IMG/VR virus record: IMGVR_UViG_3300025286_000060
Location: 1-35,775 of that record
Strand: one strand, 5' to 3'
DNA: 35,775 nt
Source: a virus
The position numbers and the translations under genes are program-made. Shown piece by piece: positions 10,586 through 35,775 of the stretch. Position 1 is the first letter of the stretch. The number at the start of each line of letters is the position of its first letter. The notes under the pieces were generated by a model. The model worked only from the letters and a program-made list of their open reading frames with translations. It ran no database searches and was not told the DNA's origin.

Positions 10586-10588
10586 AAC

Positions 10589-11299: not shown

Positions 11300-11308
11300 G
11301 TTGACCTC

Positions 11309-12073: not shown

Positions 12074-12130
12074 TTCATTCTCCTTGCCCAGAGGTCGCTC
12101 TGAGCTCTTTCATACCAGCGGGTATAAAAG

Positions 12131-12877: not shown

Positions 12878-12883
12878 GATGAC

Positions 12884-13780: not shown

Positions 13781-13786
13781 TTTTCT

Positions 13787-14500
13787 TTAGCCCGAAAGGG
13801 CTCCTCGGACAAGATCATTGCGTTCCTGCTTACCGATGACAATTCCATTCGATCGGGCTACTGCGAGATATTCTTGAAGCTCCGCTGCATTAGTTGGCTT
13901 CTTATCTGGCAATCCTATAGCGACTGTTGAATTTCCTGTATCGACAGCATTATCACTCTGTCTTGCATTTTTTAGTTTTGTATCAACAATGCGATCAACT
14001 TCTTCTTCAGATACATAACCGTTGTTTTTCAACTTACGTTCATGTAACACCAAAGAGGCAAGCCTCAACGCATCTTCAGGTCTACTGGAGCTCCAAGCCT
14101 GTCTAGCGTCAGCGAGATCGGGGTCATTATCCCAATCGACCTGGCTATCGGTAACAAGTTTGTCCAGTTCTATTTGAGTTGCTGTTACTCGTTTTCTAAG
14201 CTGTCTATCAGCTTCTTGATTTTGAGCCAACTCCTGTATTTTTTTTATCCGTTCCTGTGGATCAACTTCCTCAACCACAGTCCTTAGAGCATTAGTCATG
14301 TAACTCGTCATTCGCTCTTCTGCCTCTGCTGCATGACCAGCATTAGCTTCAGAAACTCTTAGCCTCCCCTGTGCAGATTTGAATTTCTGCTGTAGGTCAG
14401 CATTTTCCTGACGTAATTTCTCTAATTCAGACTCCGGTTCACTGGCTTCTTGTGCAGATACGGCTTGGTCGGCGGTTGCTGCTTGTTCTTCAGTTGCCAT
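13787..14500 (-). CDS. Probable capsid scaffold protein
   Basis: A 237-residue, highly acidic, Glu/Gln-rich protein directly upstream of the coat gene. Residues about 25-70 form a predicted coiled coil (ESELEKLRQENADLQQKFKS). The C-terminal third is acidic then basic with a short GALSG end. Size, position and composition are those of scaffolding proteins that bind coat protein during assembly and leave. I use the ATG at 14500: GGAG lies 6 bases ahead, whereas the longer frame starts with a GTG lacking such a site. Confidence 0.75.
   Translation of the reverse strand: MATEEQAATADQAVSAQEASEPESELEKLRQENADLQQKFKSAQGRLRVSEANAGHAAEAEERMTSYMTNALRTVVEEVDPQERIKKIQELAQNQEADRQLRKRVTATQIELDKLVTDSQVDWDNDPDLADARQAWSSSRPEDALRLASLVLHERKLKNNGYVSEEEVDRIVDTKLKNARQSDNAVDTGNSTVAIGLPDKKPTNAAELQEYLAVARSNGIVIGKQERNDLVRGALSG
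13789..13802 (-). promoter_or_regulatory. Hairpin in the scaffold-capsid junction
   Basis: AGCCC-TTTC-GGGCT (14 bases) forms a perfect 5-bp stem with a 4-base loop at the end of the scaffold gene, just before the capsid ATG. It could slow or pause ribosomes, or affect mRNA stability, to raise capsid output. It is too short and lacks a following T-run for a terminator. Confidence 0.35.
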
Positions 14501-14563
14501 ACATTTCTCCACTTTTACCCGTGCGCTTGTGAAAGGGCAGGGGCTATTTTTACGACAAGTCTA

Positions 14564-19177: not shown

Positions 19178-21651
19178 TAGACCGTTACCCTTGTTGCATA
19201 AGCATCGCTACCCGTTGCAAGTCCACCGCCCTGTGCACGTCGTATGATCTCAAGTCTTATATCTTCTGGAGATACACCTGTTGCTGCTGAAATTGCATTC
19301 AACTGTGCGCGTTGCTGATCTATTGGCATCCTTGCAAAATCACTGGCTGGTGGTAAGAGGTTCCCTGACAATACACTTTGAGTTCCAGTCATTTCACCAA
19401 TGAAACTGAGATCAAGTCCAAACTCTGTTCCAAGAGCTCCGAGCAACCCTGAGTTAGATAAAGCAAAAGCAGCTTGAGGATTTGAGGCTATTCTTTCAAT
19501 AACATCAAGTGCTGCAAGCGTTTTCTCTCGATCACGTGCAGTATTAGCCAGTTCTACAGCTCTTGCAATTCCTTCTGGGCTTGTAGCATCTGCAATACCA
19601 AGTCGAGCAGATTCAAGAAGGGATGTTCGATTAAAGTCAGTAGTATCCCGTAAGGTTTGAAACTGGCGTGTTAGATCAGCTTCTTGTTCTTGCCATGCTC
19701 TTTCTGTTGCCCGTTCTTCAGTCTGGAACTCTTGTCCGGCTATTCGTTCGCCTGATGTAAATGTCTGCATATCTTCCCGTTCAACAACCCTGCGCGTATT
19801 TTCCAAAGCCGAGGCTGCTGTTGCGTATGCTTCTGCTGCCTCTCGTTCTCCCGTTTTGAAGTTTCTTCCAAGCAGCGCCTCATAACTATCGACGCTGTTT
19901 TGAATTGTCTGCATATCAAGCTGTCGCTGATTGGCAACCTCGGCTGCCTGTCGGTCTGCATCAGCACGAAGGGCATACATACGCTCCTCGTGCTCTCTTC
20001 TTCCGAGGTCTAAATCTAACTGAAGTGTCCGCTGCCAATTCTCTGAAGCTACACGTTCGTCGGTAGTAAGATCGCGATCAAGCTGTGCCTCTGTTCTTCT
20101 AAAATCTTCCTCGGCAACACGCTGTTCATCTTGCCAAGTTTGAGTAGCTTTTCGCTCATCTGTTTCAAATTCTGATCTGGCAGCAAACTCTCTCTCAAAT
20201 TTCTGTTTTTCCCACTCATCAATAGCTGCTCGTTCGGATTCATTAAATGTTATATTTTGCTCGCGCTCGTAATCAGCAATATCCTTTGCGGTTTGTTTTT
20301 CCCATTCGCGAACTTCATCTTGATACTCTTGTGAGGCTTCTCGCTCGCTTTTTACAAAGCGTTGACCACGACCTTCTTGTAAAAATTCAAACGATTGACG
20401 ATCTTCTCGATCAAGATCAGCCTGAGTATTTGCGCGTTCCTGCTCGATTTCAGAATATTTATCTCTGATTTCCATTCGGAATTCTTCAAAGAGTTTCTCG
20501 CGTTCATACTGGTTTACGGATGCCTGTTGCTTTTGTACAAAATCCCTTTGAATATCTAAAAGCTCAAGACTTCTTTCGTATGCTGCTCCTGCTGCCTGTG
20601 TTGCAGCAGTAATTACAAATTTTTCATCAAATGTTTGCTTCCCAAATTGATCCAATACCGGAGTCTCTGTTACTAGAGTTTCAACTGAATGTGTCCAATT
20701 AGGAACACCACGGGTTCTCATCATGTCCATCCACTTTACATCTGACCAATTTTGGTCCCATCCATAATGCGGATCCTCAGTAGTCGATAATGCAAATTCC
20801 TCAAGGCGTTTTAACTGCGCCAGAGAAAGGGATTCACCCGTTTCGTCATGTGTAAATATATCTACTTCCTGCGTTTGTGGTCGGACGGATGGCACTTTTT
20901 CTATATAGCCGTATCCTTCAAGTCCTGAAGGTCCTCCGGTATATGGATCTCTTTCCTGTCCGTAAATTAGTTCTTCTTCAGACGTAACTTCTTTACCGTC
21001 AATCTCTTGTGTAACTTTGATTGTTGGAAGAGAAGGAATATCTCCGACTGTACCGGAAGCGATATTACTCTCAAATTTTCTAATAAGAGCATTTATATCT
21101 TCTTCTCCGATTATTTCGGTGTACTCTTTATCAAGTCCTTTATTAGTCGGAGATTCTTGATACTTAGCAGAAGATTCACCAATTCCTTTCCCTGTCTCTG
21201 TCTTTGTGGCAGGAGGTGGAGTAACAGGAGGCGTAGTAACAGGAGGCGTAGTAACAGGAGGGGGTCCTGCATCGTAAGGAAGTTGACTTTCAATATCGAG
21301 ATAACTTGGAGGAGGGGTGGTAACAGGAGCAGGAGGCTGAAAGTCTGCCATGCCAGCGGTATCTGTAGCGCCCATTTTTGGAGCTTGAACAGCTAAATTC
21401 CCGCCACCTCCAGGTTGCCCTGGTCCCATGTTCGCACCGTTTTGAAAAGATATATTTCCGTAATCATCTGCCATGCCAGCGGTATCTGTAACACCCGTTT
21501 TTTCTGTAGTACCAGGGCGATCAACCGCTAATGTTGAAGTAGCAGGTTTCTTTACAGGATCTACTTTTGATGCTGACGCAGACCCGCCAGGGTCTAATTC
21601 TTCTTCCCACCAACCTTCACCAGCTTCTCCTGTAATCCACATTCTTGCCAT
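19177..21651 (-). CDS. Long coiled-coil virion protein with ER-repeat region
   Basis: An 824-residue protein. Residues 1-150 are low-complexity, with two copies of a TDTAGMAD motif and a Pro/Thr run (PPVTTPPVTTPPVTPPP). Residues about 350-665 are a long Glu/Arg/Gln-rich coiled coil with at least five copies of an F-x-(S/T/K)-x-E-R-x-A-x-x-x-W/Y/F unit (for example FETDERKATQTW, FTSGERIAGQEF). The C-terminus is helical with GLLGALGTEFGLDLSFIG. AAGGGG precedes the ATG. Similar coiled repeats occur in internal or tail proteins of marine phages, in my recollection; likely an internal core or tail protein. Confidence 0.65.
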   Translation of the reverse strand: MARMWITGEAGEGWWEEELDPGGSASASKVDPVKKPATSTLAVDRPGTTEKTGVTDTAGMADDYGNISFQNGANMGPGQPGGGGNLAVQAPKMGATDTAGMADFQPPAPVTTPPPSYLDIESQLPYDAGPPPVTTPPVTTPPVTPPPATKTETGKGIGESSAKYQESPTNKGLDKEYTEIIGEEDINALIRKFESNIASGTVGDIPSLPTIKVTQEIDGKEVTSEEELIYGQERDPYTGGPSGLEGYGYIEKVPSVRPQTQEVDIFTHDETGESLSLAQLKRLEEFALSTTEDPHYGWDQNWSDVKWMDMMRTRGVPNWTHSVETLVTETPVLDQFGKQTFDEKFVITAATQAAGAAYERSLELLDIQRDFVQKQQASVNQYEREKLFEEFRMEIRDKYSEIEQERANTQADLDREDRQSFEFLQEGRGQRFVKSEREASQEYQDEVREWEKQTAKDIADYEREQNITFNESERAAIDEWEKQKFEREFAARSEFETDERKATQTWQDEQRVAEEDFRRTEAQLDRDLTTDERVASENWQRTLQLDLDLGRREHEERMYALRADADRQAAEVANQRQLDMQTIQNSVDSYEALLGRNFKTGEREAAEAYATAASALENTRRVVEREDMQTFTSGERIAGQEFQTEERATERAWQEQEADLTRQFQTLRDTTDFNRTSLLESARLGIADATSPEGIARAVELANTARDREKTLAALDVIERIASNPQAAFALSNSGLLGALGTEFGLDLSFIGEMTGTQSVLSGNLLPPASDFARMPIDQQRAQLNAISAATGVSPEDIRLEIIRRAQGGGLATGSDAYATRVTV
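20300..20420 (-). repeat. Part of the ER-repeat coiled coil (approximate)
   Basis: The F-x-x-x-E-R-x-A-type repeats recur, unevenly spaced, from about residue 430 to 660 of the 824-residue protein; this span marks the first copies (FVKSEREASQEY). Recurrence is visible in the protein rather than as clean DNA repeats. Confidence 0.4.
21344..21490 (-). repeat. 24-base direct repeat in the coiled-coil gene
   Basis: The same 24 bases occur at 21344-21367 and 21467-21490. They encode the TDTAGMAD motif twice in the N-terminal low-complexity region of the 824-residue protein. This indicates a recent internal duplication. Confidence 0.8.
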
Positions 21652-26171: not shown

Positions 26172-26357
26172 ATGGACCCAAGATGGCTTAGATGCGAAGC
26201 ATGTGAAGATTACTACTGTGCGCTTCACGATATGCACGTGTTTGAATGTCCCTGCCCAAATTACGAGGATTGCCTGAACGATGGATTCGATCCATATGAA
26301 GAGATGGCAGACAAAGCAAATATCGCAATGCAAATGCAAAGACCGATAATAATGTGA
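26172..26357 (+). CDS. Small Cys/His-rich (zinc-binding-like) protein
   Basis: A 61-residue protein with AGGAGG 6 bases before the ATG. Cys8-x2-Cys11, Cys16, His19, His22, Cys26-x-Cys28 and Cys34 give a likely compact zinc-bound fold. The C-terminal 25 residues are helical and acidic. It is the first rightward gene and lies divergent to the packaging genes, which suits a regulator. No family recognised. Its 5' end abuts the inverted repeat. A possible weak hairpin (TAAGGT-CTAAA-ACCTTA, 26358-26374) follows the stop. Confidence 0.6.
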   Translation: MDPRWLRCEACEDYYCALHDMHVFECPCPNYEDCLNDGFDPYEEMADKANIAMQMQRPIIM

Positions 26358-26516
26358 TAAGGTCTAAAACCTTACAAAGACAGCGCTATAAAGCCCGAAC
26401 CGCACCGGATGACAGTCAGGAACGCTGACCAGACATACATCCCATCAATTTTTTGCCCATGATGACCGGCAAAAGTCCCGATGAGTTAGCGACAAACAAA
26501 CTCTTTCTTTATAAAA

Positions 26517-26531
26517 GGGGGGTTTGGGGGG
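26517..26531 (+). other. Paired G6 tract
   Basis: Two G6 runs separated by TTT, preceded by AAAA and followed by TTTT. With only two runs, a G-quadruplex would need short runs to fold back or two strands to pair. It may mark an origin or control site; nothing further supports a function. Confidence 0.4.
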
Positions 26532-27014
26532 TTTTAACTTTCTTTCTGCTAACAACAGCTACAACACTACTCACTTAGTGATAACAGACAAACAACACTG
26601 TAGCTAACTAACACACATACACAGACATAAGAAATATAACTAACCAAAAATCTGTGACAGTAGTACCCACCACGTGTAAAGGGCGAAAAGGGCGAACGCT
26701 TCACGACGTGCCTCGCGCAGGCGCGTCTAAAACCCGCACACCTGTACAAGTTGAGTACGCGCACGTGTCAGTGGAGTCGCGCCCACGTAAAGCGCCGGGT
26801 TTGTGTCGATACTAGGTGCCACCCTTCTCAATTGCCCCTTGATTTGCCGTATCCGTTTCGGTGTGCTACCACACGCGCGCGACGCTGCCCTCGGGCACGC
26901 GCGAGGCTGAAGTTTTTCGATCTCGGATCTGCCTTATGCCCACGCGAGCGGGCACGCCTATGCACGACCTAGCAGATTTTTGCCGTGATAGTCTGGTTTT
27001 AGGTCGAGCGAGAC

Positions 27015-27072
27015 ACCCGCTCCCGCCAGACCCGCCCACATGGGCACACATACCAGCGGGTACGCACAGGAG
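27015..27072 (+). promoter_or_regulatory. Structured leader before the first right-arm gene
   Basis: An outer inverted repeat (ACCCGCT 27015-27021, AGCGGGT 27055-27061) encloses an inner hairpin GCCC-ACAT-GGGC (27034-27045), directly followed by ACACATA. The ribosome site AGGAG (27068-27072) comes just after. The leader could control translation of the first gene. It shares the ACACATA word with the leaders of later genes. Confidence 0.5.
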
Positions 27073-27078
27073 ATCGCC

Positions 27079-27330
27079 ATGACAACCGTATTTCTCAGCC
27101 CAGCATCGCTCGCACGCCTACCCAAGGCAACGTTGGTCGACTTCGTGATCACGCTCGCACAACGCCCCAGCGTAGACGCAGACGTACCTGCACCTACACC
27201 TACGCCTGAGGCACAACCCGAAAAGGCAAAACGTGAAGTGCCTTGCAAGGTGCATGACGTGAGCGTATGCACACGCAAGTTCTGGGGCGACAAGGGTGCA
27301 ACTGACTGCCGCGTAGCACGCCTTGCATGA
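27079..27330 (+). CDS. Small protein with Cys/His motif
   Basis: An 83-residue protein. Start chosen at the ATG with AGGAG (27068-27072) upstream. Residues 30-50 are acidic and Pro/Ala-rich (PAPTPTPEAQPEKAK). The last 30 residues hold Cys56, His59, Cys64 and Cys77, possibly a small metal site. The N-terminal 25 residues are predicted helical. First gene of the rightward cluster; its 3' end forms an inverted repeat with the start of the next gene. Function unknown. Confidence 0.6.
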   Translation: MTTVFLSPASLARLPKATLVDFVITLAQRPSVDADVPAPTPTPEAQPEKAKREVPCKVHDVSVCTRKFWGDKGATDCRVARLA

Positions 27331-27369
27331 CCCACACGTACGGACAATGCGCCCACGTCGCAAGGCGTG
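27317..27369 (+). promoter_or_regulatory. 10-bp inverted repeat across the gene 1 / gene 2 junction
   Basis: CACGCCTTGC (27317-27326), in the last codons of the first gene, is the exact complement of GCAAGGCGTG (27360-27369), which holds the possible AAGG ribosome site and the GTG of the next gene. A ribosome finishing gene 1 would open the stem and free gene 2's start, so this could be a coupling switch. Confidence 0.45.
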
Positions 27370-27516
27370 AGCGTGTTGCCCGAGGTGAGTCGGTCAGACT
27401 CAGAGCACATACGCGCCTTGTACGAGGACTATCACGTCTCGCATGGCAACGTGCGGGTGACGGGTGGCTACGTCGATCCGGCGTCGATCAGTGACCCGTA
27501 TCTCGTGGACATGTAA
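27367..27516 (+). CDS. Small acidic hypothetical protein
   Basis: A 49-codon frame with a GTG start (or GTG 27373, 47 residues) and a TAA end. The translation (for example SDSEHIRALYEDYHVSHGN, then VDPASISDPYLVDM) looks like a folded acidic protein and is much more protein-like than the other frames here. The ribosome site AAGG is weak. It is in the same frame as gene 1, separated by one TGA, so a readthrough extension is also possible. No family recognised. Confidence 0.5.
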   Translation: MSVLPEVSRSDSEHIRALYEDYHVSHGNVRVTGGYVDPASISDPYLVDM

Positions 27517-27530
27517 GGCGCAATACGTGG

Positions 27531-27550
27531 CGCAAGGTGTACGCCTTGCG
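27531..27550 (+). terminator. Hairpin after gene 2
   Basis: CGCAAGG-TGTACG-CCTTGCG gives a perfect 7-bp stem 15 bases beyond the stop. There is no T-run after it, so it may be an mRNA-stabilising or processing hairpin rather than a true terminator. Confidence 0.35.
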
Positions 27551-27587
27551 TCTACGTGAGAGCGTTCGAGGCGACTTGGATTCTCTC

Positions 27588-27635
27588 ACGTGGGACACAT
27601 TCCCACGTACACACATATACGCACCTTGTGGTGCG
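27588..27635 (+). promoter_or_regulatory. Structured leader of the 27648 gene
   Basis: ACGTGGGA-CACAT-TCCCACGT (27588-27608) is followed at once by ACACACATA (27609-27617) and by a second hairpin CGCACC-TTGT-GGTGCG (27620-27635) just before AGGAGG. The same order, hairpin then ACACACATA then ribosome site, recurs in the next leader. Confidence 0.5.
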
Positions 27636-27647
27636 ACAGGAGGCAAA

Positions 27648-27911
27648 ATGCCTAACTCTACACACACGTCCATCGTGGACGACATTGCGAACGAAATCGT
27701 GAACGACATACCTGCGCCAATACGCGATCACGAGGGATTCGAGTCAAACGACACCTACGTGTCGTCACGTGAAGCGACAGCCCTTGCGGGCACTGCAATG
27801 CAGGTGGAGGGACATCCCGACACCGAACTCACGTTCGCAGATCTCGTGGGCGATCCTAAGGTGAGCGAGAACCTCGTCGCTGACATGTTCGAGTGGCTTG
27901 CGGTCGAGTAA
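27648..27911 (+). CDS. Small acidic hypothetical protein
   Basis: An 87-residue, strongly acidic protein (MPNSTHTSIVDDIANEI at the start, LVADMFEWLAVE at the end), with AGGAGG (27638-27643) ahead of the ATG. The acidic charge and predicted helices are common in phage early proteins that bind host proteins or mimic DNA. No family recognised; that role is speculation. Confidence 0.55.
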   Translation: MPNSTHTSIVDDIANEIVNDIPAPIRDHEGFESNDTYVSSREATALAGTAMQVEGHPDTELTFADLVGDPKVSENLVADMFEWLAVE

Positions 27912-27930
27912 CCCAGGCGTACGTGTGGGG

Positions 27931-27946
27931 GCAAACGAGAGTTTGC
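27931..27946 (+). terminator. Hairpin after the 27648 gene
   Basis: GCAAAC-GAGA-GTTTGC, a 6-bp perfect stem 19 bases after the stop codon. No T-run follows. A possible stability or processing element. Confidence 0.3.
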
Positions 27947-27988
27947 TCTCACGCTCATGGGCATCACACATTGCGTGGTGTTCATGAT

Positions 27989-28033
27989 CGTGGGGATTTC
28001 CCACGTACACACATAGCGCACATTGGAGGTGCA
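27989..28033 (+). promoter_or_regulatory. Repeated leader before the 28036 gene
   Basis: CGTGGG-GATTT-CCCACG (27989-28005) followed by ACACACATA (28007-28015) and CGCACATTGGAGGTGCA (28017-28033). In the last element GCAC and GTGC can pair, leaving the GGAG in the loop. The 17-base element is repeated exactly at 28397-28413 before the next gene. Confidence 0.55.
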
Positions 28034-28035
28034 AA

Positions 28036-28383
28036 TTGATTCAGGCGATTAGGTGCATGTTAGGTATGCACACGTGGGAGAGGGCGTTGTACGTATCGCA
28101 AGTTCCAGACGCGGGGATGTACTGCGTGCATTGCATGTACGTGGACTGGCTCGTTGACGAACTCGATTCCGCAGATTGGGACACGTGTGAAGGTGCGCCT
28201 ATGCACGTGCCATGCACGTGCTACGTCAATACGTGGGTTTCCGAGGAGCGCACGTGGGATTGGTACATAGACAAGGAGATCGGCACGTGGGACGAGTACG
28301 CACGTGAGTCTCCGATACATCCCGCGGATATGTGCGCACACGACAGGAGAGGAGCACGCGTGGAGTACGCGTTGATCGTATAG
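28036..28383 (+). CDS. Trp/Cys-rich small protein, C-x2-G-x-H-x-W type
   Basis: A 115-residue protein with a TTG start; GGAGG (28025-28029) is 6 bases ahead. The N-terminus has Cys7-x2-Gly10-x-His12-x-Trp14, then Cys30-x2-Cys33, a plausible zinc site reminiscent of the small DUF1660-type proteins (recalled, not searched). The rest is acidic and has repeated TW-D/E motifs that follow the repeated CACGTGGGA words in the DNA. Further Cys50, Cys60, Cys62, Cys100. A short protein of unknown function. Confidence 0.55.
   Translation: MIQAIRCMLGMHTWERALYVSQVPDAGMYCVHCMYVDWLVDELDSADWDTCEGAPMHVPCTCYVNTWVSEERTWDWYIDKEIGTWDEYARESPIHPADMCAHDRRGARVEYALIV
28071..28306 (+). repeat. Cluster of seven CACGTG palindromes
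   Basis: CACGTG starts at 28071, 28182, 28204, 28215, 28251, 28284 and 28301, seven times in 236 bases. Random expectation for a 6-base word is well under one. All are inside the 28036 gene. Confidence 0.8.
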
Positions 28384-28396
28384 GACACACACATAA

Positions 28397-28413
28397 CGCA
28401 CATTGGAGGTGCA
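28397..28413 (+). promoter_or_regulatory. Second copy of the 17-base leader element
   Basis: CGCACATTGGAGGTGCA repeats exactly the element at 28017-28033 and gives the ribosome site of the 28419 gene. ACACACATA lies just upstream (28387-28395). A third, partial copy (CACACATTGGAGG, 28647-28659) precedes the 28665 gene. Confidence 0.7.
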
Positions 28414-28418
28414 CACAT

Positions 28419-28646
28419 ATGTCACGAAGCTACGTGAACCCGAATAGGCGACTCAGGTACGAGCCTAAGACGAAATTCGACAGGCGAATGACCGCACGCG
28501 CTGAACGACACGCGATTAGGCAACAACTGGCGAGTGGCAACGATAACCCGTTCTACGCGGTCATCACGTATCACTCAGACGCAACGTATAGCGTGTCCGA
28601 ACTGGACATGAGCATACCTGCACAAGCAAAACAGGCGCGCAAATAA
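28419..28646 (+). CDS. Small basic hypothetical protein
   Basis: A 75-residue protein with GGAGG ahead of the ATG. The N-terminal 40 residues are strongly basic with RRLR/RRM clusters (PNRRLRYEPKTKFDRRMTAR) and may bind RNA or DNA. The C-terminus is beta-like then polar. No family recognised. Confidence 0.55.
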   Translation: MSRSYVNPNRRLRYEPKTKFDRRMTARAERHAIRQQLASGNDNPFYAVITYHSDATYSVSELDMSIPAQAKQARK

Positions 28647-28664
28647 CACACATTGGAGGCACGC

Positions 28665-28958
28665 ATGTGCAAGAAAACTCGGAGCGATTTTCGCAAAAAC
28701 GGCAACGGCTACGCATACCACATAAGCTGGTGCAAGGCACACGCGAGTAAGGCGAAAAAGCCCGCAAAAACGACCACAAAGCCCGCAAAAACGAGCGCAA
28801 AGCCAACACGCACGAGATTGCCCAACTACGCGAAGGCATGGGTAGCCACGTACAAGGCTGAACTCGCCAAAGGCGTTGGACACATAAAGGCACTCATACG
28901 TGCGACGAAGGCGCATGGCAAACTGACAACTGCACAGGTACGCAAGGCATTAGCCTAA
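28665..28958 (+). CDS. Lys/Ala/Pro-rich H1-like small protein
   Basis: A 97-residue protein. Residues about 25-45 repeat a KPAKT unit (KKPAKTTTKPAKTSAKPT), like the tails of histone H1 or bacterial H1-like proteins. The C-terminal 45 residues (LPNYAKAWVATYKAELAKGV, then LTTAQVRKALA) form a likely helical domain. GGAGG (28655-28659) precedes the ATG. A nucleoid/DNA-binding role is plausible; not proven. Confidence 0.6.
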   Translation: MCKKTRSDFRKNGNGYAYHISWCKAHASKAKKPAKTTTKPAKTSAKPTRTRLPNYAKAWVATYKAELAKGVGHIKALIRATKAHGKLTTAQVRKALA

Positions 28959-28968
28959 GGAGGCACGC

Positions 28969-29091
28969 ATGGCAAATCGTATACGCAAGTGGTGGCGTGG
29001 AGAGTACGGCGTACTCCCGTGGCAAACGCTACCCATAGTGGCGATTCTCGTGTGGTCGCTCTTGATCGCACTCATATTGGATGCACGTTAG
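28969..29091 (+). CDS. 40-residue single-span membrane protein
   Basis: A 40-codon gene with AAGGAGG (28957-28963) ahead of its ATG, below common length cut-offs. The N-terminus is basic (MANRIRKWWRGE), then PWQTLPIVAILVWSLLIALI forms one membrane helix, and the end is LDAR. The positive N-terminus suggests it faces the cytoplasm. It could be a membrane toxin, anti-host or superinfection-exclusion protein; nothing specific is known. Confidence 0.65.
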   Translation: MANRIRKWWRGEYGVLPWQTLPIVAILVWSLLIALILDAR

Positions 29092-29102
29092 GAGGTACAC
29101 GT

Positions 29103-29222
29103 ATGTTCTGGCTGTGTTGGTTCGGGATTCACAGATGGCGTCGAGTTTGGGCGCGCATTGAACGAATCAAACAAGATGGACGCGTATGTATACGATGCGG
29201 GAGGTCAAAGCGTATGAGATGA
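29103..29222 (+). CDS. 39-residue C-x2-G-x-H-x-W protein
   Basis: A 39-codon gene with AGGAGG (29090-29095) upstream. Cys5-x2-Gly8-x-His10-x-Trp12 and Cys29-x2-Cys32 match the motif of the 28036 gene with almost the same spacing (15 or 16 residues between Trp and the Cys pair). The rest is strongly basic (RRVWARIERIKQ). Probably a zinc-bound micro-protein; function unknown. The two genes look like diverged relatives. Confidence 0.6.
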   Translation: MFWLCWFGIHRWRRVWARIERIKQDGRVCIRCGRSKRMR

Positions 29223-29239
29223 AACTGGAACTAGCTATA

Positions 29240-29284
29240 CCCCATCTCTCTCTCCCTCTAAAGAGGGAGGAGAGAGAGATGGGG
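29240..29284 (+). promoter_or_regulatory. Pyrimidine/purine hairpin 1
   Basis: A pyrimidine-rich arm (29240-29259) pairs with the purine-rich arm 29262-29284, about 20 bp with a 3-base bulge, around a CCCTC-TAAA-GAGGG tip. It lies between the 29103 gene and the 29316 gene. No T-run follows, so it is not a classic terminator. The purine arm contains GGGAGGAG followed by ATG, an imitation or real ribosome site that the stem would hide. Confidence 0.65.
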
Positions 29285-29315
29285 ACTGGAAAATTTTGGA
29301 AACTTGGAGGGCAGT

Positions 29316-29477
29316 ATGCGAGATTTCACAGTTTGTGGCGAATGTGGCACAGTCACGATGACGTGTCCCAGCGATGGTTCTGCACTGATAGACCCACGCC
29401 TTATGGAGTGCGAATGGGGTCACGTGACAGAGCCAGTCGAATACAACGCAGATGGAATTTACACACAAGTAGCGTAG
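29316..29477 (+). CDS. 53-residue Cys-rich small protein
   Basis: A 53-codon gene too short for common cut-offs. GGAGG (29306-29310) precedes the ATG and TAG ends it. The translation begins MRDFTVCGECGTVTMTC; Cys7-x2-Cys10, Cys17 and Cys32 with His36 suggest a zinc site. The rest is acidic. A longer frame overlaps it in another register but has a less protein-like sequence and a start inside the hairpin. Function unknown. Confidence 0.65.
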   Translation: MRDFTVCGECGTVTMTCPSDGSALIDPRLMECEWGHVTEPVEYNADGIYTQVA

Positions 29478-29487
29478 GGGGGCATAC

Positions 29488-29820
29488 GTGGGACAAACAC
29501 ACAAAATCGGGAAACACAAGACACACGTTGCAAATCGTGACGGGTGGACTGTCGTTACCTATCACAACACGGACGTGGTGAAAATCCACAACGACTGCGG
29601 ACAGATCGTACTTGATTCTGGCGGTTGGCGTACACAGACGACCAAGACACGCATGAATCAGGTCGCAAGCGAGTTCAATCTGGAGTTTCACGTACACCAG
29701 CAGGACTGGACATGGTACGTGACCACTCCAATGGGCACGACCGAGTTCATCGACGGCGTGACGTTTATGAACGATGGCGACTGGACAGTACGTGATCTCG
29801 TTCTGGGTTCGATGAAATAG
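29488..29820 (+). CDS. Widespread small phage/plasmid protein (SGGWRT family)
   Basis: A 110-residue protein with a GTG start and a G-rich site upstream. The order of motifs TVVTYHNTDVVKI, LDSGGWRTQTTKTRMNQ and WTWYVTTPMGTTEFIDGVTF matches, from memory, a small protein family common in phages and plasmids whose function is not known. Next gene's ribosome site overlaps its stop. Family call is by motif recall, without a search. Confidence 0.65.
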   Translation: MGQTHKIGKHKTHVANRDGWTVVTYHNTDVVKIHNDCGQIVLDSGGWRTQTTKTRMNQVASEFNLEFHVHQQDWTWYVTTPMGTTEFIDGVTFMNDGDWTVRDLVLGSMK

Positions 29821-29831
29821 GAGTAAACGAC

Positions 29832-30038
29832 ATGAAAACACAAGAACGAGTCGCACTCGCGCATGACTTACAAGCGACTGCGACTGAACTCGCTCAACAC
29901 ATGAGCGTTTTCATCGAGTGTACGAACTGCGTCGCGGAGACGTATGACGATTGGGATTCTCAGGTACGTGATGTAAGCGGGTTGCTTGCACATTTGCGTC
30001 GTGAGATCGAGGCTGTTCGTGGTGAGTACCACGCCTGA
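29832..30038 (+). CDS. Small helical protein
   Basis: A 68-residue, helical protein (MKTQERVALAHDLQATATEL, then VSGLLAHLRREIEAVRG). The ATG follows AGGAGTAAACGAC, a start cassette also used near 30131 and 30896. Only two Cys residues. Ends just before a perfect hairpin. No family recognised. Confidence 0.55.
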   Translation: MKTQERVALAHDLQATATELAQHMSVFIECTNCVAETYDDWDSQVRDVSGLLAHLRREIEAVRGEYHA

Positions 30039-30045
30039 GCACTTG

Positions 30046-30087
30046 CTCCTTTCTCCTCTGAATCTTAGGAATCAGAGGAGAAAGGAG
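30046..30087 (+). promoter_or_regulatory. Pyrimidine/purine hairpin 2
   Basis: CTCCTTTCTCCTCTGA (30046-30061) is the exact complement of TCAGAGGAGAAAGGAG (30072-30087): a perfect 16-bp stem with a 10-base loop. It starts 7 bases after the stop of the 29832 gene. No T-run follows. The purine arm is rich in ribosome-site-like words. Confidence 0.75.
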
Positions 30088-30141
30088 AAAGCGGTACGTT
30101 GTAAATTCACGGGTGTTCTCACATACACACAGGAGTAAACG

Positions 30142-30528
30142 ATGGACATTTATTGCAGCACGTGTGGCGAACCATACGAACTATACATAGGCGACGATGA
30201 AGATCGAAAGGAGATCGAACGTGTACGCCAAGGCAGGTGCTCGCTATGCAAGGGCGTGAAGCCACCAACCTGTCACGATTGCGGAAACCAAATGCCACGC
30301 GAAGATCTAAAGTCACGTGGGTGTGGGAGCAACGACGCATGTGACGACAAGCTGATTTGTATGAACTGTTGGGGATACCACGAGGAGGGTAATCACACAC
30401 GTAAGTACGAGTCAAGCAAACTGTCTAAGGCACAGGCATCGGCTGTCTTGTACGACATATTGGGCGACGATCTCGATGGCGTCGCGGCGATGATGGACGA
30501 TGGCGAATACATGGGGCTTATCGAATAG
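30142..30528 (+). CDS. Multi-Cys (zinc-finger-like) protein
   Basis: A 128-residue protein. Cys pairs at 5/8, 33/36, 44/47 and 73/76, plus Cys61, Cys67, His80 and His85, suggest two or three zinc sites. The C-terminal 45 residues are acidic and helical. AGGAG (30131-30135) is 6 bases before the ATG. The region 30277-30319 recurs exactly in the 30863 gene. Likely a nucleic-acid or protein-binding adaptor; not proven. Confidence 0.6.
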   Translation: MDIYCSTCGEPYELYIGDDEDRKEIERVRQGRCSLCKGVKPPTCHDCGNQMPREDLKSRGCGSNDACDDKLICMNCWGYHEEGNHTRKYESSKLSKAQASAVLYDILGDDLDGVAAMMDDGEYMGLIE

Positions 30529-30980
30529 GAGGCATGAGCATGGCACTAGATCACACAATTATGAGCGAGTTGGTGTTTATTACGGACGAGGGACATGGCT
30601 GGCTGAGAATACCCAAAGACATATACGAGTTGAGCGGGTACAAGGCGAGCAATTTTAGCTACAAGGACGACGATTACGTGTATCTGGAGGAAGATTGTGA
30701 CGTGTACGGGTGGTTCAAGGCAATCACAGGTGAGGAACCGGAGAATTTTCCGTGGATTGGGCGTGAGATTCACGTGACGATGCGCTCAGATTCAAACCCA
30801 CGCAATAAAACACGTATGAGTGGCGAAGGATTTGTGAGTCCATTCACACAGGAGGCACGAGCATGACACATACACCAACACCATGGTACGCAACTGGAGT
30901 AAACGACATGAAAAAAACGATGGGCATTTATTGCAGTGATTGCGGAAACCAAATGCCACGCGAAGATCTAAAGTCACGTG
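30277..30980 (+). repeat. 43-base exact duplication between two neighbouring genes
   Basis: Bases 30277-30319 and 30938-30980 are identical over 43 bases and encode the same zinc-finger segment (DCGNQMPREDLKSR) in frame. A further shared word, CATTTATTGCAG, lies at 30147-30158 and 30925-30936. Confidence 0.85.
30540..30866 (+). CDS. Widespread small phage/plasmid protein (GHGWL family)
   Basis: A 108-residue protein. FITDEGHGWLRIPKDIYEL, SYKDDDYVYLEEDCD and WFKAITG follow the order of a common small phage/plasmid protein family as I recall it; function unknown. I choose the ATG at 30540: AGGAGG (30527-30532) is 7 bases ahead, whereas the ATG at 30534 is only 1 base from it. It ends in QEARA, made by the ribosome site of the next gene. 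Confidence 0.65.
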   Translation: MALDHTIMSELVFITDEGHGWLRIPKDIYELSGYKASNFSYKDDDYVYLEEDCDVYGWFKAITGEEPENFPWIGREIHVTMRSDSNPRNKTRMSGEGFVSPFTQEARA

Positions 30981-31171
30981 TGGGTGCAGGCATGACAAAC
31001 GACGCGCTTGTCGAAGCGTACAGGGCAGTCAACGCACACGACGCGCTTGTAAAAGCGTTAGTTTGTGCTGAAGCTGACATTGAGGGGTTAGTAGAGTCCG
31101 AAGCAGACGATCATCCTGCATGGCAAACCCTCAAAGAGATACGAGCTGCACTACAGGAGGTACGAACATGA
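30863..31171 (+). CDS. Chimeric small protein, HTPTPW / AVNAHDAL family with inserted zinc-finger segment
   Basis: A 102-residue protein. It opens MTHTPTPWYATG and closes with RAVNAHDALVKAL plus an acidic helix, the two ends of a common phage protein family (recalled). In between lies IYCSDCGNQMPREDLKSR, taken from the 30142 gene by exact 43-base identity, joined to a GGAGTAAACGACATG start word like that of the 29832 gene. It thus looks like a mosaic. The ATG overlaps the previous stop; it ends in QEVRT. Confidence 0.65.
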   Translation: MTHTPTPWYATGVNDMKKTMGIYCSDCGNQMPREDLKSRVGAGMTNDALVEAYRAVNAHDALVKALVCAEADIEGLVESEADDHPAWQTLKEIRAALQEVRT

Positions 31172-31437
31172 TAAAGAAATCATTGCAGGATTCCTATGCC
31201 CGTTGGGTTGCTGAAGGCAAGCAGCCTGACTGGTGGGACGGACTTGACGAGTCCATGCTTGAGGTCAACTTCTATAAAGAGGACGCTGTAAACCGAGGGC
31301 TGGACTCCTATAAAGAGGACTCACCGCTGAAAGTCTGCGTTTATCAAAACTATGACGTAACGGACTGGGTCGAAACTAAAACTGACCGCTGGGTAGATGT
31401 AACCCGGTGGCTTAGGCATAAGGAGGTACGAGCATGA
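31168..31437 (+). CDS. Small hypothetical protein with short internal repeat
   Basis: An 89-residue protein overlapping the previous stop by ATGA, with AGGAGG upstream. A 13-base repeat (CTATAAAGAGGAC at 31272 and 31308) gives two YKED motifs. Trp-rich C-terminal half (VTDWVETKTDRWVDVTRWL). Ends KEVRA. No family recognised. Confidence 0.6.
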   Translation: MIKKSLQDSYARWVAEGKQPDWWDGLDESMLEVNFYKEDAVNRGLDSYKEDSPLKVCVYQNYDVTDWVETKTDRWVDVTRWLRHKEVRA

Positions 31438-31997
31438 GCGCATGGATACCAGCGAAAGAACACATCGACGCTATGGTTCGCATAATTGCGGACACTGACA
31501 AGTACAACACGTTTGCAAAAGGCGTGTTCGAGGGCTATTACGAGGGGCAACCGAAACTTGATTCATTGAACGATGTGCAAAGCACAGTAATCAAAAACAT
31601 CATCGGACAGGCGCTTACAGATGAGGTTATTCTCAGCGTTTCCAATCGTTATCCACGTGATGGAATGTTGGAATTGCCAGGGGCGCGTCCCGCATGGTGG
31701 GGTGAACGGTACGAGTACGACGAAACCACACGTATGCCTACATACACTGAGGCGTTGAAAATCTTTGACTGCTACGACTATCAGGCATGTGAGCATGAGA
31801 GCTATGAGAATTCAGTCGTTGGAAAGTTGGTAGAACTTATACGAAACGACCTTGCCGATGCGAATTTCGACATGCGTACGACAGACGCATACAACGATGC
31901 GCCGTGGGGTTGGACAAGCGAACAAAAGCAAGCGAAAAAAGTCACGGTATGCGTGGACTGTGGCTCAACTAAAGGCACTAAGGAGGTGCGAGCATGA
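31434..31997 (+). CDS. Widespread small phage/plasmid protein (SAWI / APWGW family)
   Basis: A 187-residue protein. The start MSAWIPAKEHIDAMV, the centre FDCYDYQACEHESYENS and the end YNDAPWGW match, from memory, a family common in phages and plasmids with unknown function. An added C-terminal segment has Cys174-x2-Cys177 (VCVDCGSTKGT) and ends in KEVRA. AGGAGG lies before the ATG, within the end of the previous gene. Family call not searched. Confidence 0.65.
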   Translation: MSAWIPAKEHIDAMVRIIADTDKYNTFAKGVFEGYYEGQPKLDSLNDVQSTVIKNIIGQALTDEVILSVSNRYPRDGMLELPGARPAWWGERYEYDETTRMPTYTEALKIFDCYDYQACEHESYENSVVGKLVELIRNDLADANFDMRTTDAYNDAPWGWTSEQKQAKKVTVCVDCGSTKGTKEVRA

Positions 31998-32245
31998 TTA
32001 CACGTGAGATGAAATACATCGTGAACGAGATGAGAAAACTGAAAGGCTACACGATCATAGACGTTGCATTGGACGATGAATCAGATCCAACTATGCCAAT
32101 GCCCGCATTGATTTTGGAGTGGCAAAGAGCAACAGTCTCGCCTATGGAGGGCGACAAAAAACTAGCGTGGGTACAACGTGACCCAGAGGGCAATGGGACA
32201 GGATTCCTGTTGGTCGAGGACTATTCACAGGAGGCGCAAGCGTAA
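31994..32245 (+). CDS. Small hypothetical protein
   Basis: An 83-residue protein overlapping the previous stop as ATGA. The N-terminus is helical and basic (MKYIVNEMRKLKGYTIID), the C-terminal half beta-like with WQRATVSPMEG and GTGFLLVEDYS. Ends QEAQA from the next gene's start cassette. TAATG joins it to the next gene. No family recognised. Confidence 0.6.
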   Translation: MITREMKYIVNEMRKLKGYTIIDVALDDESDPTMPMPALILEWQRATVSPMEGDKKLAWVQRDPEGNGTGFLLVEDYSQEAQA

Positions 32246-32499
32246 TGAAACCACAACAACAGACAGAGGTGCAGCGAGAGTTAGACAAGGCGCTCGACAG
32301 GCTCGTTGAATCGAGAGAGATTCTCCAAGAAATTTACGATCAGGGAGAGGAGAAGCTCGACAATATGCCTGAGAGTGCAGAGGGTAGCGACGAGTTAGAG
32401 CATCTTAGCGACCGACTAGGCTCGATTGAAGATGCTATCGGCTACATAGACGCTGCTGAAAGTCGAGTTGATGACGCAATATCGGAGGTGCGAGCATGA
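32245..32499 (+). CDS. Small coiled-coil protein
   Basis: An 84-residue, acidic protein made almost wholly of predicted coiled coil (VQRELDKALDRLVESREIL, then SDRLGSIEDAIGYI). Starts at TAATG; ends SEVRA. It may dimerise. No family recognised. Confidence 0.6.
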   Translation: MKPQQQTEVQRELDKALDRLVESREILQEIYDQGEEKLDNMPESAEGSDELEHLSDRLGSIEDAIGYIDAAESRVDDAISEVRA

Positions 32500-32900
32500 C
32501 AGATTACTTTAGATTCAGAGATGTGCTTGACGTTGCACGTGCATATCAGTCAGGAGATACAGCAACAGGCGACAAATTATTCAAAGAGCACACGTTAGGC
32601 GATGAGCATGACGACCAATGTGTTCACTGTGGACAGGACACACGTGTAAGCGGATACGTGAACCGTGTTCCTGCTGATATAGACGACTCGCCCTTTCCGA
32701 GCGCACGAATTATGTGTGGTTCGTGCGTTTCGGAAGGGGATTTGGAGATAGATGGCGAGCGCGCCATGCGAATGATGTACGCCATTGAGGAGATAATGAA
32801 CAACAAGGAGCTTCAGTTCAAATGCTTGCCTTTCAGACAGGCGATTGCTGAGGTGTTTGCATACGAAAACATGGAATTGGAACTTGATTCAAGAAGCTGA
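32496..32900 (+). CDS. Small zinc-ribbon-like protein
   Basis: A 134-residue protein. Cys42-x2-Cys45 (QCVHCGQD) and Cys74-x2-Cys77 (MCGSC) make a likely zinc ribbon with a 28-residue spacing; the C-terminal half is helical and acidic. Starts by ATGA overlap with AGGTGCG upstream. Its stop is directly followed by hairpin 3. Function unknown. Confidence 0.6.
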   Translation: MTDYFRFRDVLDVARAYQSGDTATGDKLFKEHTLGDEHDDQCVHCGQDTRVSGYVNRVPADIDDSPFPSARIMCGSCVSEGDLEIDGERAMRMMYAIEEIMNNKELQFKCLPFRQAIAEVFAYENMELELDSRS

Positions 32901-32936
32901 GTCTAATCTCTCTATATTCATAGAGAGAGATTAGAC
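32901..32936 (+). promoter_or_regulatory. Pyrimidine/purine hairpin 3
   Basis: GTCTAATCTCTCT (32901-32913) is the exact complement of AGAGAGATTAGAC (32924-32936), a 13-bp stem starting on the base after the stop codon. No T-run follows. Same type as the two hairpins upstream: pyrimidines left, purines right. Confidence 0.75.
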
Positions 32937-32954
32937 ATCAGAGGGAGGGCAAAA

Positions 32955-33236
32955 ATGGCTGTTTCGACAGCAGCAAAACGAAAGCAGTTCAAGCTGACAG
33001 CACAGGCGAAGCCAAGAGAGCGGGTAAAGCGCATATTCTATGGCAAGCTGACTGTCACCGAGGAATGGAGAGGGTTCGGAGGTACGCGTGTATCGAGGTC
33101 TTGGAAGTTCGATGGAGAACAAGGATTAGACATGCAGATATGCTCGTACACAAAAACATCATACGCCATGATCGACAATGAGACTGGCGAACACGAATTA
33201 GTGCTTTTTGCACAGGAGGATAACGACAATGGGTAA
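32955..33236 (+). CDS. Small basic hypothetical protein
   Basis: A 93-residue protein. The N-terminal 30 residues are strongly basic (AKRKQFKLTAQAKPRERVKR), the rest beta-like (GFGGTRVSRSWKFDGEQGLD) and acidic at the end. GGAGGG (32942-32947) precedes the ATG. Overlaps the next gene by 8 bases. May bind nucleic acid; no family recognised. Confidence 0.55.
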   Translation: MAVSTAAKRKQFKLTAQAKPRERVKRIFYGKLTVTEEWRGFGGTRVSRSWKFDGEQGLDMQICSYTKTSYAMIDNETGEHELVLFAQEDNDNG

Positions 33237-33612
33237 CGCATCAGGTGTGAGAGACAAGACATTACGACGGTTTGCAGCAGCAGCGGTACTTGACATACCC
33301 GTAGACGAGATGGTGGGCTCACCGTGGAGCGCCATGAGAGATATGATCTACGAAAACAAGGATGAGACAATCATTCCCAAGTTCAAGGCAGCAAAGAAAC
33401 TCCTGCGACGCAAGAAAACCTACATGTCCATACTCGAATTTGTGGGCACAGGCGAGCTTGCTGAACTGGTCAACTCGACGACCGAAACTCCGGCGAAAGC
33501 GGAGACAAAAAAGCCAGCGAGTAAACCCAGGCGCACGAGTGAAGGCAACGCCAAGCAGCAATCCGACAAGGATGCGATCAAAGAAGCCATGCAGAATCGT
33601 GGCAAAAGCTAA
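33229..33612 (+). CDS. Small hypothetical protein with basic tail
   Basis: A 127-residue protein. N-terminal 75 residues are helical (SPWSAMRDMIYENKDETIIP); the last 45 are Lys/Arg/Glu-rich and probably disordered (KAETKKPASKPRRTSEG). AGGAGG (33214-33219) precedes the ATG within the end of the previous gene. No family recognised. Confidence 0.55.
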   Translation: MGNASGVRDKTLRRFAAAAVLDIPVDEMVGSPWSAMRDMIYENKDETIIPKFKAAKKLLRRKKTYMSILEFVGTGELAELVNSTTETPAKAETKKPASKPRRTSEGNAKQQSDKDAIKEAMQNRGKS

Positions 33613-33626
33613 CAGGGAGGGCACAC

Positions 33627-34379
33627 ATGAGTCACTTTACGGCGATAGTGATAACGAACAACACGCATACCAAAGGCAAACGAAAGGCGGATGAACTCAC
33701 GAGCTTAGATGCAGAAGCAGCAATCGAGAGTTTACTTGCGCCATTCGATGAGAATTGGAAAGCGCCACCTCGCCCAGAGGATTGTTGGTGCAGGGAACAA
33801 TACGACAAGTCAACTTCAACTTGGTCAAAAGTCGCACCCACGCCTGACTGCGAGGATTGCAACGGATCAGGCACAAAAGTGACCACTTACAATCCAGCGA
33901 GTAAGTGGGACTGGTATCAGGTCGGTGGCAGATGGGAAGGCAAGTTAGTGGAGGGTTACGACGCTAAAGATGACATACGCAACTACGAAAAGTGTACTTA
34001 TTGCAAGGGCACAGGCTTGCGTGATGACGAGATCGGAAACGAAAGACGAGCAGAAGATCCAGATTGGGGTTGCAACGCCTGTCACGTTTCTTATGCGGAA
34101 GGCAAGACTGCAAAGCTGTCGAACGGAAAGCCAGCGTTAGGCATGAAGCGAAAGTTTGATAACGCTCCCACCGGAACTAATGTTGCGTTTATGAAAGACA
34201 TTGCAAAGGACTTCAAGCCATTTGCATTTGTCACGCCACGTTATGAGTGGATTGAGAGCGCACGTATGGGCTGGTTTGCTACGACAACGGATGACAATGA
34301 AGAGTACGAGAAACAATGGGAGGATGCACGTAAGACATACGGCGACCACGTAGCAGTCTTAGTTGACTGTCACATATAA
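33627..34379 (+). CDS. MSHFT-type phage protein with DnaJ-like zinc-finger motifs
   Basis: A 250-residue protein. MSHFTAIVI at the start, LLAPFDENW near 36-44 and KWDWYQVGGRW near 93-103 are the marks of a common phage protein family, as I recall it. Four Cys pairs lie at 53/55, 75/78 (CEDCNGSG), 123/126 (CTYCKGTG) and 149/152; the CxxCxGxG repeats are like those of DnaJ. Possibly a zinc-bound chaperone-like or adaptor protein. GGAGGG precedes the ATG. Function unknown in the family. Confidence 0.7.
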   Translation: MSHFTAIVITNNTHTKGKRKADELTSLDAEAAIESLLAPFDENWKAPPRPEDCWCREQYDKSTSTWSKVAPTPDCEDCNGSGTKVTTYNPASKWDWYQVGGRWEGKLVEGYDAKDDIRNYEKCTYCKGTGLRDDEIGNERRAEDPDWGCNACHVSYAEGKTAKLSNGKPALGMKRKFDNAPTGTNVAFMKDIAKDFKPFAFVTPRYEWIESARMGWFATTTDDNEEYEKQWEDARKTYGDHVAVLVDCHI

Positions 34380-34399
34380 GCAAATAGGAGGGCATATTT

Positions 34400-35470
34400 A
34401 TGCCAGCAAATATATTCGGCGAACGACTCACATCAGTACGTGAACCAGCATGGCACAGAATTGGACAAGTTATCAACGAGCCAATGTCAGTTGCCGATGC
34501 GTTCATACATGCAGGTATCGACTACGATGTGACACTTGCGCCTTTATGGGCACAGTACGAGCTCGATGGTGAAATCGTACCGATGGAACTGACAAACAAA
34601 CGTGCTGTGGTTCGAGAGGAGCACACGTTCAACGACAAGGTGGACTCGGCTGCAATCCTGGGCGTTGTAAGCGATGGTTACAACATCCTGCAAAATCGAG
34701 AACTCGCTGCCATGTTGGAAAACGTGAACACAAAGTGGGCAATCGAAACCGTGGGTGCTCTTGGCAACGGTGAGGTTGCGTGGCTCATGCTAGATGCAGG
34801 TGATTACACGGTTGGCAAGGACAAATGCAAACACTACCTGATGGTATCCACCGGACACGATGGATCACACTCAGTACAGGTTGCGCTCGTCAAGGTGAGA
34901 GTTGTCTGTTGGAACACATACCATTGGGCGTTGGATAGTGCTTCGATGAAGTACACCATTCCGCACAAAGGGAACGTGAAAGACGAAACACAGTTTGCCA
35001 TTGACATCATTGCGGGTGCAGAGCGGACGATCAACACCTCGATCAAGGTCGAGGAAAAGATGGTCAACACACGTGTGACTGATGAGGACGTGAAAGAACT
35101 CATCGACGCTGCCTACCCGATGCCACGCAAGCCACGTAACGCAAAGATCAACACGGCAGTACAAAGCGAATCTCTCAGCAAAGAACAAGTGAAGCAACTG
35201 CTCACGAATTCGGGTGGAGAGGGCTTTGAACGGTACGAGAAGCAGAAGGAACGAGCAGAGGCTTTACGCTCCGGTGCATTCCAGATGTACGAGGAGATGA
35301 ACCTTGCTTTTCCGTGGATGAGCAACACCGCTTGGTCTGCGCTCAATGCGATAACTGAAACCTCTAACTGGAGACAGGGACGCAACGCTGACTCAGGTGT
35401 GATGTTCGGAGCACGCAAGGATGAGATGACACGTGGCTTGAAGGCTGTTGGTCAACTCATAGGAATATAG
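34400..35470 (+). CDS. DUF932 (phage/plasmid-like) protein
   Basis: A 356-residue protein with the features of DUF932: REPAWHRIGQVI near residue 15, a central GNGEVAWLMLDAG, then HYLMVSTGHDGSHSVQVAL and KVRVVCWNTYHWAL, and a C-terminal helical part. Such proteins are common in phages and conjugative plasmids; their role is unknown. TAGGAGGGC lies before the ATG. High confidence for the family, none for a function. Confidence 0.85.
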   Translation: MPANIFGERLTSVREPAWHRIGQVINEPMSVADAFIHAGIDYDVTLAPLWAQYELDGEIVPMELTNKRAVVREEHTFNDKVDSAAILGVVSDGYNILQNRELAAMLENVNTKWAIETVGALGNGEVAWLMLDAGDYTVGKDKCKHYLMVSTGHDGSHSVQVALVKVRVVCWNTYHWALDSASMKYTIPHKGNVKDETQFAIDIIAGAERTINTSIKVEEKMVNTRVTDEDVKELIDAAYPMPRKPRNAKINTAVQSESLSKEQVKQLLTNSGGEGFERYEKQKERAEALRSGAFQMYEEMNLAFPWMSNTAWSALNAITETSNWRQGRNADSGVMFGARKDEMTRGLKAVGQLIGI

Positions 35471-35493
35471 GCACACACCTGGAGGGCAGATTC

Positions 35494-35775
35494 GTGAGCG
35501 TAAAAGCAATGACATGGGTGTGGACATTGAAAGGCATTCCTGCGCCAACACGTTTAGTGTTACTGGCGTTGGCTGATTGGGCTGATGATGAGGGAGTTGC
35601 GTTCCCTGCGGTTGCGACCGTTGCAGACAAGTGTGAGCTCTCTATCAGAACTGTACAACGACATCTACGCGCTGCGGAGCAACATGGATTGCTCACAACC
35701 ACGCAGCGCAGTAGTTCGTCACTCTATAAATTGCCCGTGCATAAAGTATGGGGTGACAAAATGACAGGGGTGACA
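35494..35775 (+). CDS. Partial helix-turn-helix protein (replication initiator/organiser type)
   Basis: The gene runs off the right edge; 94 codons visible. GTG start with GGAGGG (35481-35486). Residues 14-70 match the winged helix at the N-terminus of phage replication initiators/organisers: TRLVLLALADWADDEGVAF, then AFPAVATVADKCELSIRTVQ and RHLRAAEQHGLL. Likely binds the origin or acts as regulator. This suggests that the replication genes follow to the right of the window. Confidence 0.75.
   Translation, partial: MSVKAMTWVWTLKGIPAPTRLVLLALADWADDEGVAFPAVATVADKCELSIRTVQRHLRAAEQHGLLTTTQRSSSSLYKLPVHKVWGDKMTGVT

Follow-up and report, generated by a model that had tools for sequence, protein, structure and literature searches.

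In phage T7, RNase III sites are hairpins between early genes at which the long early transcript is cut into separate mRNAs. Selective RNA processing and stabilization (SRPS) has been described in the bacterium Clostridium cellulolyticum: 28 of the 33 stem-loops at intergenic processing sites have no U-run, and the presence of a 3' stem-loop accompanies a higher level of upstream transcript (PMC4423207). A third system is found in cluster K mycobacteriophages, where the ESAS are inverted repeats of about 17 bp with short spacers, located just before a 13-bp GGGATAGGAGCCC motif (PMC3203893).

The DNA analysed here (the window) is the IMG/VR record IMGVR_UViG_3300025286_000060 in full, 35,775 bases of an uncultivated phage with a G+C content of 46.6%. 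Positions 1 to 26,173 are filled by minus-strand genes, including one for a terminase large subunit that is distant kin of actinobacterial-phage terminases, and plus-strand genes extend from about 26.2 kb to the end of the record. From 28.4 kb on, the plus-strand genes are packed, with junctions of at most 35 nt or overlaps. Only three junctions are wider, at 93, 103 and 54 nt, and these are where the three hairpins lie, one per gap. The order of blocks and hairpins is as follows:

27648..29222, plus strand: gene block 1, small genes with start cassettes of the CACATTGGAGGTGCA and AGGAGG types
29240..29284, plus strand: hairpin 1, 5' arm CCCCATCTCTCTCTCCCTCT, 3' arm AGAGGGAGGAGAGAGAGATGGGG, loop in a UAAA region; 16 bp perfect, about 20 bp with a bulge
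29316..30038, plus strand: gene block 2, three small genes, of which 29488-29820 is phrog_554
30042..30091, plus strand: hairpin 2, 5' arm CTTGCTCCTTTCTCCTCTGAATC, 3' arm GAATCAGAGGAGAAAGGAGAAAG; 16 bp perfect at 30046-30087, arms of 23 nt matching at 91%
30142..32900, plus strand: gene block 3, eight small packed genes, starts mostly GGAGGYACGAGCATGA, ATGA overlaps
32897..32941, plus strand: hairpin 3, 5' arm CTGAGTCTAATCTCTCT, 3' arm AGAGAGATTAGACATCAG; 13 bp perfect at 32901-32936, 17 pairs with one bulged A
32955..35775, plus strand: gene block 4, with a phrog_10079 gene (33627-34379) and a DUF932/phrog_1221 gene (34400-35470); continues past the end of the record

Like the RNase III sites of T7, these hairpins lie between phage early genes; in T7, internal loops make the stems irregular, whereas those of the window are long, nearly perfect pyrimidine/purine duplexes. 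The stem-loops of the cip-cel operon of C. cellulolyticum likewise stand between operon genes at the upstream 3' end, mostly lack a U-run and are followed by genes that are transcribed. They differ in being bacterial and mapped by RNA sequencing, whereas the phage stems, with energies of up to -46 kcal/mol, are read off the DNA, and the parts of the source used here describe no pyrimidine/purine rule for cip-cel (PMC4423207). With ESAS the hairpins share the size of the inverted repeats, the absence from the structural half of the genome and the proximity to repeated start motifs. Unlike ESAS, the arms in the window have no common 17-bp half-site consensus, and the stems hug stop codons (PMC3203893). 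The 13-bp motif was not found at starts 29316, 30142 and 32955; the differing arms and the missing motif rule out that hairpins 1 to 3 are cluster K ESAS.

Three hairpins in a packed early region

A sequence-only reading of this DNA had pointed to three hairpins with a pyrimidine-rich left arm, a purine-rich right arm and no T-run, and scans for stems, inverted repeats and folds all find them. They are the three longest perfect stems of the window (16, 16 and 13 bp), while the longest stem per shuffle was 8 to 11 bp in 20 dinucleotide shuffles of the whole window. A separate scan returned the same three as the best inverted repeats. The folding energies of the hairpin regions are -42.7, -46.3 and -25.5 kcal/mol (z = -5.3, -6.6 and -3.1). 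Hence, the stems are well above chance and stable, and they fill the only long gaps of the packed early region, beside stop codons.

Hairpin 1 begins 17 nt past the stop codon at 29220-29222 and ends 31 nt ahead of the ATG at 29316. Hairpin 2 follows its stop codon (30036-30038) by 3 nt and precedes the ATG at 30142 by 50 nt. In hairpin 3 the stop codon TGA (32898-32900) is within the stem (0 nt), only 18 nt separate 32936 from the ATG at 32955, and the Shine-Dalgarno sequence of the next gene comes immediately after the stem. All three lie between co-directional plus-strand genes.

The 5' arms of hairpins 1, 2 and 3 contain 94, 88 and 77% pyrimidine and the 3' arms 94, 88 and 77% purine, which counts as one property and not two, in three hairpins of one genome that are not independent draws; because the arrangement in a perfect inverted repeat is identical on both strands, composition alone does not reveal the acting strand. 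The arms were also said to be unlike in sequence and alike in base class. This is what we see: pyrimidine first and purine second in all three, and the sequence that hairpins 1 and 3 have in common is limited to a short ATCTCTCT core. The bases after the stems, ACTGGAAAA, AAAGCGGTA and ATCAGAGGG, do not form a T-run in any of the three cases.

A G+C-rich stem after a stop codon is a trait of intrinsic terminators, but the U-run is absent and hairpins 1 to 3 are missing from the terminator scan. A double-stranded stem of about 11 to 20 bp or more, as in RNase III sites, is present in all three. So is the arrangement of SRPS stem-loops, intergenic, next to the upstream gene's 3' end and with no U-run, in what is probably a single operon. 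An Rfam scan of the window returned no family at gathering score, only sub-threshold matches to hairpin-type models. Between 26 and 35.8 kb, a promoter scan restricted to sigma-70-type sites found one site, on the minus strand, against 9.1 expected by chance. The lack of T-runs and of plus-strand promoter-like sites, together with the 18 to 50 nt between stem and start, suggests that the downstream blocks depend on read-through.

The sequence-only reading had further placed each hairpin at the edge of a block with its own type of start cassette. The edges and the cassette families exist, but the cassettes recur across blocks: the GGAGTAAACGA cassette occurs on both flanks of hairpin 2 (29820; 30131; 30896), and GGAGGGCA is present in block 2 and block 4.

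The base class in other phages

We found no close relative of the early region of the window in phage records. The terminase search returned the contig L010, a 71% relative that is only 4.5 kb long and does not include the early region, and the terminase profile found no relative in bacterial and archaeal genomes. An early-region relative was found neither among the DUF932 matches listed nor with the phrog_10079 protein, and the start-cassette pattern gave seven matches, all without related genes. The window's own stems have no close relative for comparison, and paired arm changes were assessed in a second phage group.

This group was found by scanning viral contigs with the pattern ATCTCTCT...AGAGAGAT, which makes it a biased sample. 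The 17.8-kb contig IMGVR_UViG_3300024518_000773 (L353) contains seven hairpins of the pyrimidine-first, purine-second type, five of which lack the search pattern. All of them come soon after a stop codon within one plus-strand early operon, which goes on to genes for a phrog_1221 protein, an exonuclease, a DnaB-like helicase and a primase. The predicted folds are strong in every case, from -27.8 to -46.3 kcal/mol. Additional hairpins of this class occur in its relatives L355 (with a near-duplicate, L354) and L337. The sequence-only reading had suggested a search of related phages for the same composition at block borders; the composition is found at comparable positions in the L353, L355 and L337 group, whose link to the window is distant. 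Hairpin 1 of the window resembles L337 hairpins in detail (CCCATC...(TC)n...(GA)n...GATGGG), and its loop CUAAAG is also found in L353, L355 and L337. Another contig, L359, has three CT-rich hairpins 12 to 17 nt past stop codons with the loop CTGAACGTAGTGA in common.

The kinship between the window and L353 consists of a distant phrog_1221 family (21% identity) and the general layout, nothing else; the large minus-strand protein gave no support for it. Hence, the base class is either widespread, transferred or convergent. MW202803.1 has genes in common with L353; shared genes with the window are unconvincing, and its inverted repeats do not belong to the class. Named phage records queried with the L353 early region or the L359 hairpin gave no match.

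As background we used the junctions between co-directional genes in viral contigs (L010 to L232) gathered through homologues of the terminase, DUF932 and phrog_10079 proteins and through the start-cassette pattern, blind to hairpins; these junctions yielded 42 distinct stems of 12 bp or longer. Their 3' arms contain on average 43% purine (maximum 67%), and T-rich sequence follows 16 of the 42. For the window and L353 hairpins the corresponding values are 77 to 100% purine and a T-run in 0 of 10. Stems within one genome are non-independent and the pattern search itself picked two of the seven from L353, so P values from this comparison are not taken at face value. Intercistronic hairpins are therefore ordinary in such phages, but the pyrimidine/purine base class, with no background stem above 67% purine, is not. 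Over the nine bases past the stem, the mean RNA:DNA hybrid energy from a nearest-neighbour table is -9.9 kcal/mol in the background and -14.1 in the window and L353 hairpins, a difference usable in direction only. That the base class is selected, as the sequence-only reading proposed, therefore holds in part. The background stems and the second phage group with the class indicate that it is non-accidental, but an origin from CT repeats could mimic selection.

Two junctions in the L353 group show how such hairpins change. Upstream of the exonuclease gene, L353 has the arms CGCCCCTCCCC/GGGGAGGGGCG and L355 has AACCCATCCCCCC/GGGGGGAGATGGGTT; both arms are altered, and pairing and base class are retained. 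Compensatory pairs were not counted across all hairpins, since the inverted repeats were picked as perfect and pair by definition. L353 and L355 have the hairpin CATCATCTCTCTCTCTC in identical form, within 88 nt of 90% identity against 70 to 75% in longer matches. In L353 it precedes gene 3465 and in L355 the counterpart of gene 4211. Gene 3465 is flanked by two hairpins in L353 and has no match in L355. It is one case, with which the gain or loss of hairpin-bounded blocks as units would be consistent.

Possible functions and origins

We propose that the three hairpins may be intercistronic RNA elements through which a polycistronic early mRNA is processed or stabilised while transcription continues, and we give this about an even chance of being right. 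Polymerase would read through all three hairpins and make one long plus-strand early transcript. The folded stem would then be cut by an enzyme of the RNase III type, or would block 3'-to-5' exonucleases after a cut nearby. The early message would become block-sized mRNAs, with the upstream piece retaining a protective 3' hairpin. Among the functions that the sequence-only reading had listed, RNase III sites or stability elements seem to fit best.

An RNA:DNA hybrid is weakest with a U-run and strongest with purine RNA on pyrimidine DNA. The purine-rich 3' arm could hence reflect a demand for a strong hybrid, the opposite of a terminator. The all-pyrimidine 5' arm would form no competing structure of its own, and during stem formation the polymerase would hold purine-rich RNA on pyrimidine DNA, so that the hairpin forms and the transcript is not released. 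Besides the stability and position of the stems in the window, our proposal is supported by the contrast with the background stems, by the L353 operon, in which seven such stems lead to predicted helicase and primase genes, and by the pairing retained at the exonuclease junction of L353 and L355. Its best precedent is SRPS in C. cellulolyticum. It is weakened by the distant link between the window and L353, by the CT-hairpin pattern with which L353 was found and by the many cores that are CT repeats, which could arise without selection.

These repeats are the starting point for the alternative that survives best, although we think it unlikely. The hairpins could be by-products of DNA copying, in which slippage at CT tracts and template switching create perfect palindromes, or small palindromes that spread between phages; they would survive only between genes, as functionless border marks. 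Many arms have (CT)n cores, an identical hairpin stands before different genes in L353 and L355, and palindrome arrays of L337 are found in non-coding and even in coding sequence, all as expected under this explanation. Three observations argue against it. First, hairpin 2 and several L353 stems are all-pyrimidine and yet no simple repeats. Second, stems after stop codons occur only in early operons, and none in the long minus-strand structural regions. Third, both arms have changed and pairing has been retained at the exonuclease junction of L353 and L355.

One could also argue that the hairpins terminate or attenuate transcription in a host whose terminators require no U-run, with blocks that have their own promoters or rely on leaky read-through. 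The literature on mycobacteria has discussed terminators that lack a U-run, and a site right after stop codons is terminator-like. We nevertheless regard this as improbable. The T-run is absent, the 18 nt from hairpin 3 to the next start leave a promoter no room, the replication genes of L353 are preceded by seven consecutive stems, and the purine-rich 3' arm and the bases downstream make strong RNA:DNA hybrids.

Translational coupling, in which the stem hampers access of ribosomes to the following start codon unless one that completes the upstream gene has opened it, would suit hairpin 3, which contains the stop codon and adjoins the next Shine-Dalgarno sequence. It is very doubtful for the set, since the distance to the following Shine-Dalgarno sequence is more than 20 nt from the end of hairpin 1 and about 40 nt from the end of hairpin 2. 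The trap for the anti-Shine-Dalgarno end of the 16S rRNA that the sequence-only reading had offered finds no support and is most improbable: only hairpin 2, with AGAAAGGAG, is a good complement of the 16S tail, hairpin 1 has GGGAGGAG, and the motif is locked in stable stems; hairpin 3 lacks it, as do the plain (CT)n/(GA)n stems that make up most of the L353 hairpins.

To return to RNA processing or stabilisation without termination, a broader and more tentative form of it, which we think possible but probably not correct as a whole, is that pyrimidine-first, purine-second hairpins are a distinct transcription-transparent class in several uncultivated phage lineages. The base class would be selected for a strong hybrid during stem formation and would allow RNA-protecting stems between blocks without termination, and hairpin-bounded blocks would be gained or lost as units. 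Our limited literature search found no description of a pyrimidine/purine rule for intercistronic phage hairpins, which is weak evidence of absence. Intergenic hairpins are commonly annotated as terminators. A recurrent class without a U-run and with the reverse strand chemistry would shed light on the way phages set the dosage of genes that share a long early transcript. It would also supply a rule by which hairpins that terminate can be told from those that do not where RNA data are lacking for a genome, and would mark the borders of exchangeable gene blocks.

Other elements of the early regions

In the early region of the window (26174-35775), CACGTG occurs 23 times, against 2.3 copies expected from base content and 5.8 from dinucleotides; the structural region has 5 copies against 4.9 expected. 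ACGTG and TACG are likewise enriched, most strongly in block 1. Block 3 contains a 49-nt direct repeat with 96% identity (30277-30325 and 30938-30986) and a second one (30137-30158 and 30915-30936), which point to a partial gene duplication.

The loop type GAACGAAGTGA / GAGCGAAGCGA / CTGAACGTAGTGA is common to CT-rich hairpins across several phage lineages, at these positions:

L353: 2067 and 4165
L355: 89
L358: 16886
L359: 9604, 10753 and 11828
L356: 14512

Other hairpin families were also seen. L130 has five hairpins within 11 kb (8289-19477) whose arms differ and which have a CTTTGTG-type loop in common. In another phage group (L175, L177 and L179 to L182), the homologue of the window gene at 33627-34379 is preceded by a conserved hairpin of 15 to 18 bp with an arm of the ATTCATTTGAGAGATATT type. 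L337 has a dense, non-coding palindrome array at about 6.6 to 8.3 kb, and GCCTTCGGC-type palindromic inserts are repeated inside its coding sequence.

Mini-hairpins of 4 to 5 bp are a frequent setting for the Shine-Dalgarno sequence in the L353 group: the sequence occupies the loop, and the arms vary by gene (for example, TGCAC-GGGAG-GTGCA, CATAC-AGGGAG-GTATG and CACAC-GGGAG-GTGTG). In the window, where such mini-hairpins are at 28405 and 31982, GCAC-ATTGGAG-GTGC precedes block-1 genes. The mini-hairpins of the group are located as follows:

L353: 3453, 4244, 1614, 2881 and 6209
L355: 2173
L337: also present

Finally, L353 and L337 carry a phage-borne tmRNA, and a self-cleaving ribozyme of the Pistol type lies immediately upstream of the tmRNA's 3' part:

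L353: 2620-2684 and 2773-2855, tmRNA/Pistol
L337: 5905-6228, minus strand, tmRNA/Pistol, with the tag AWDYNPMWVQCSA according to ARAGORN
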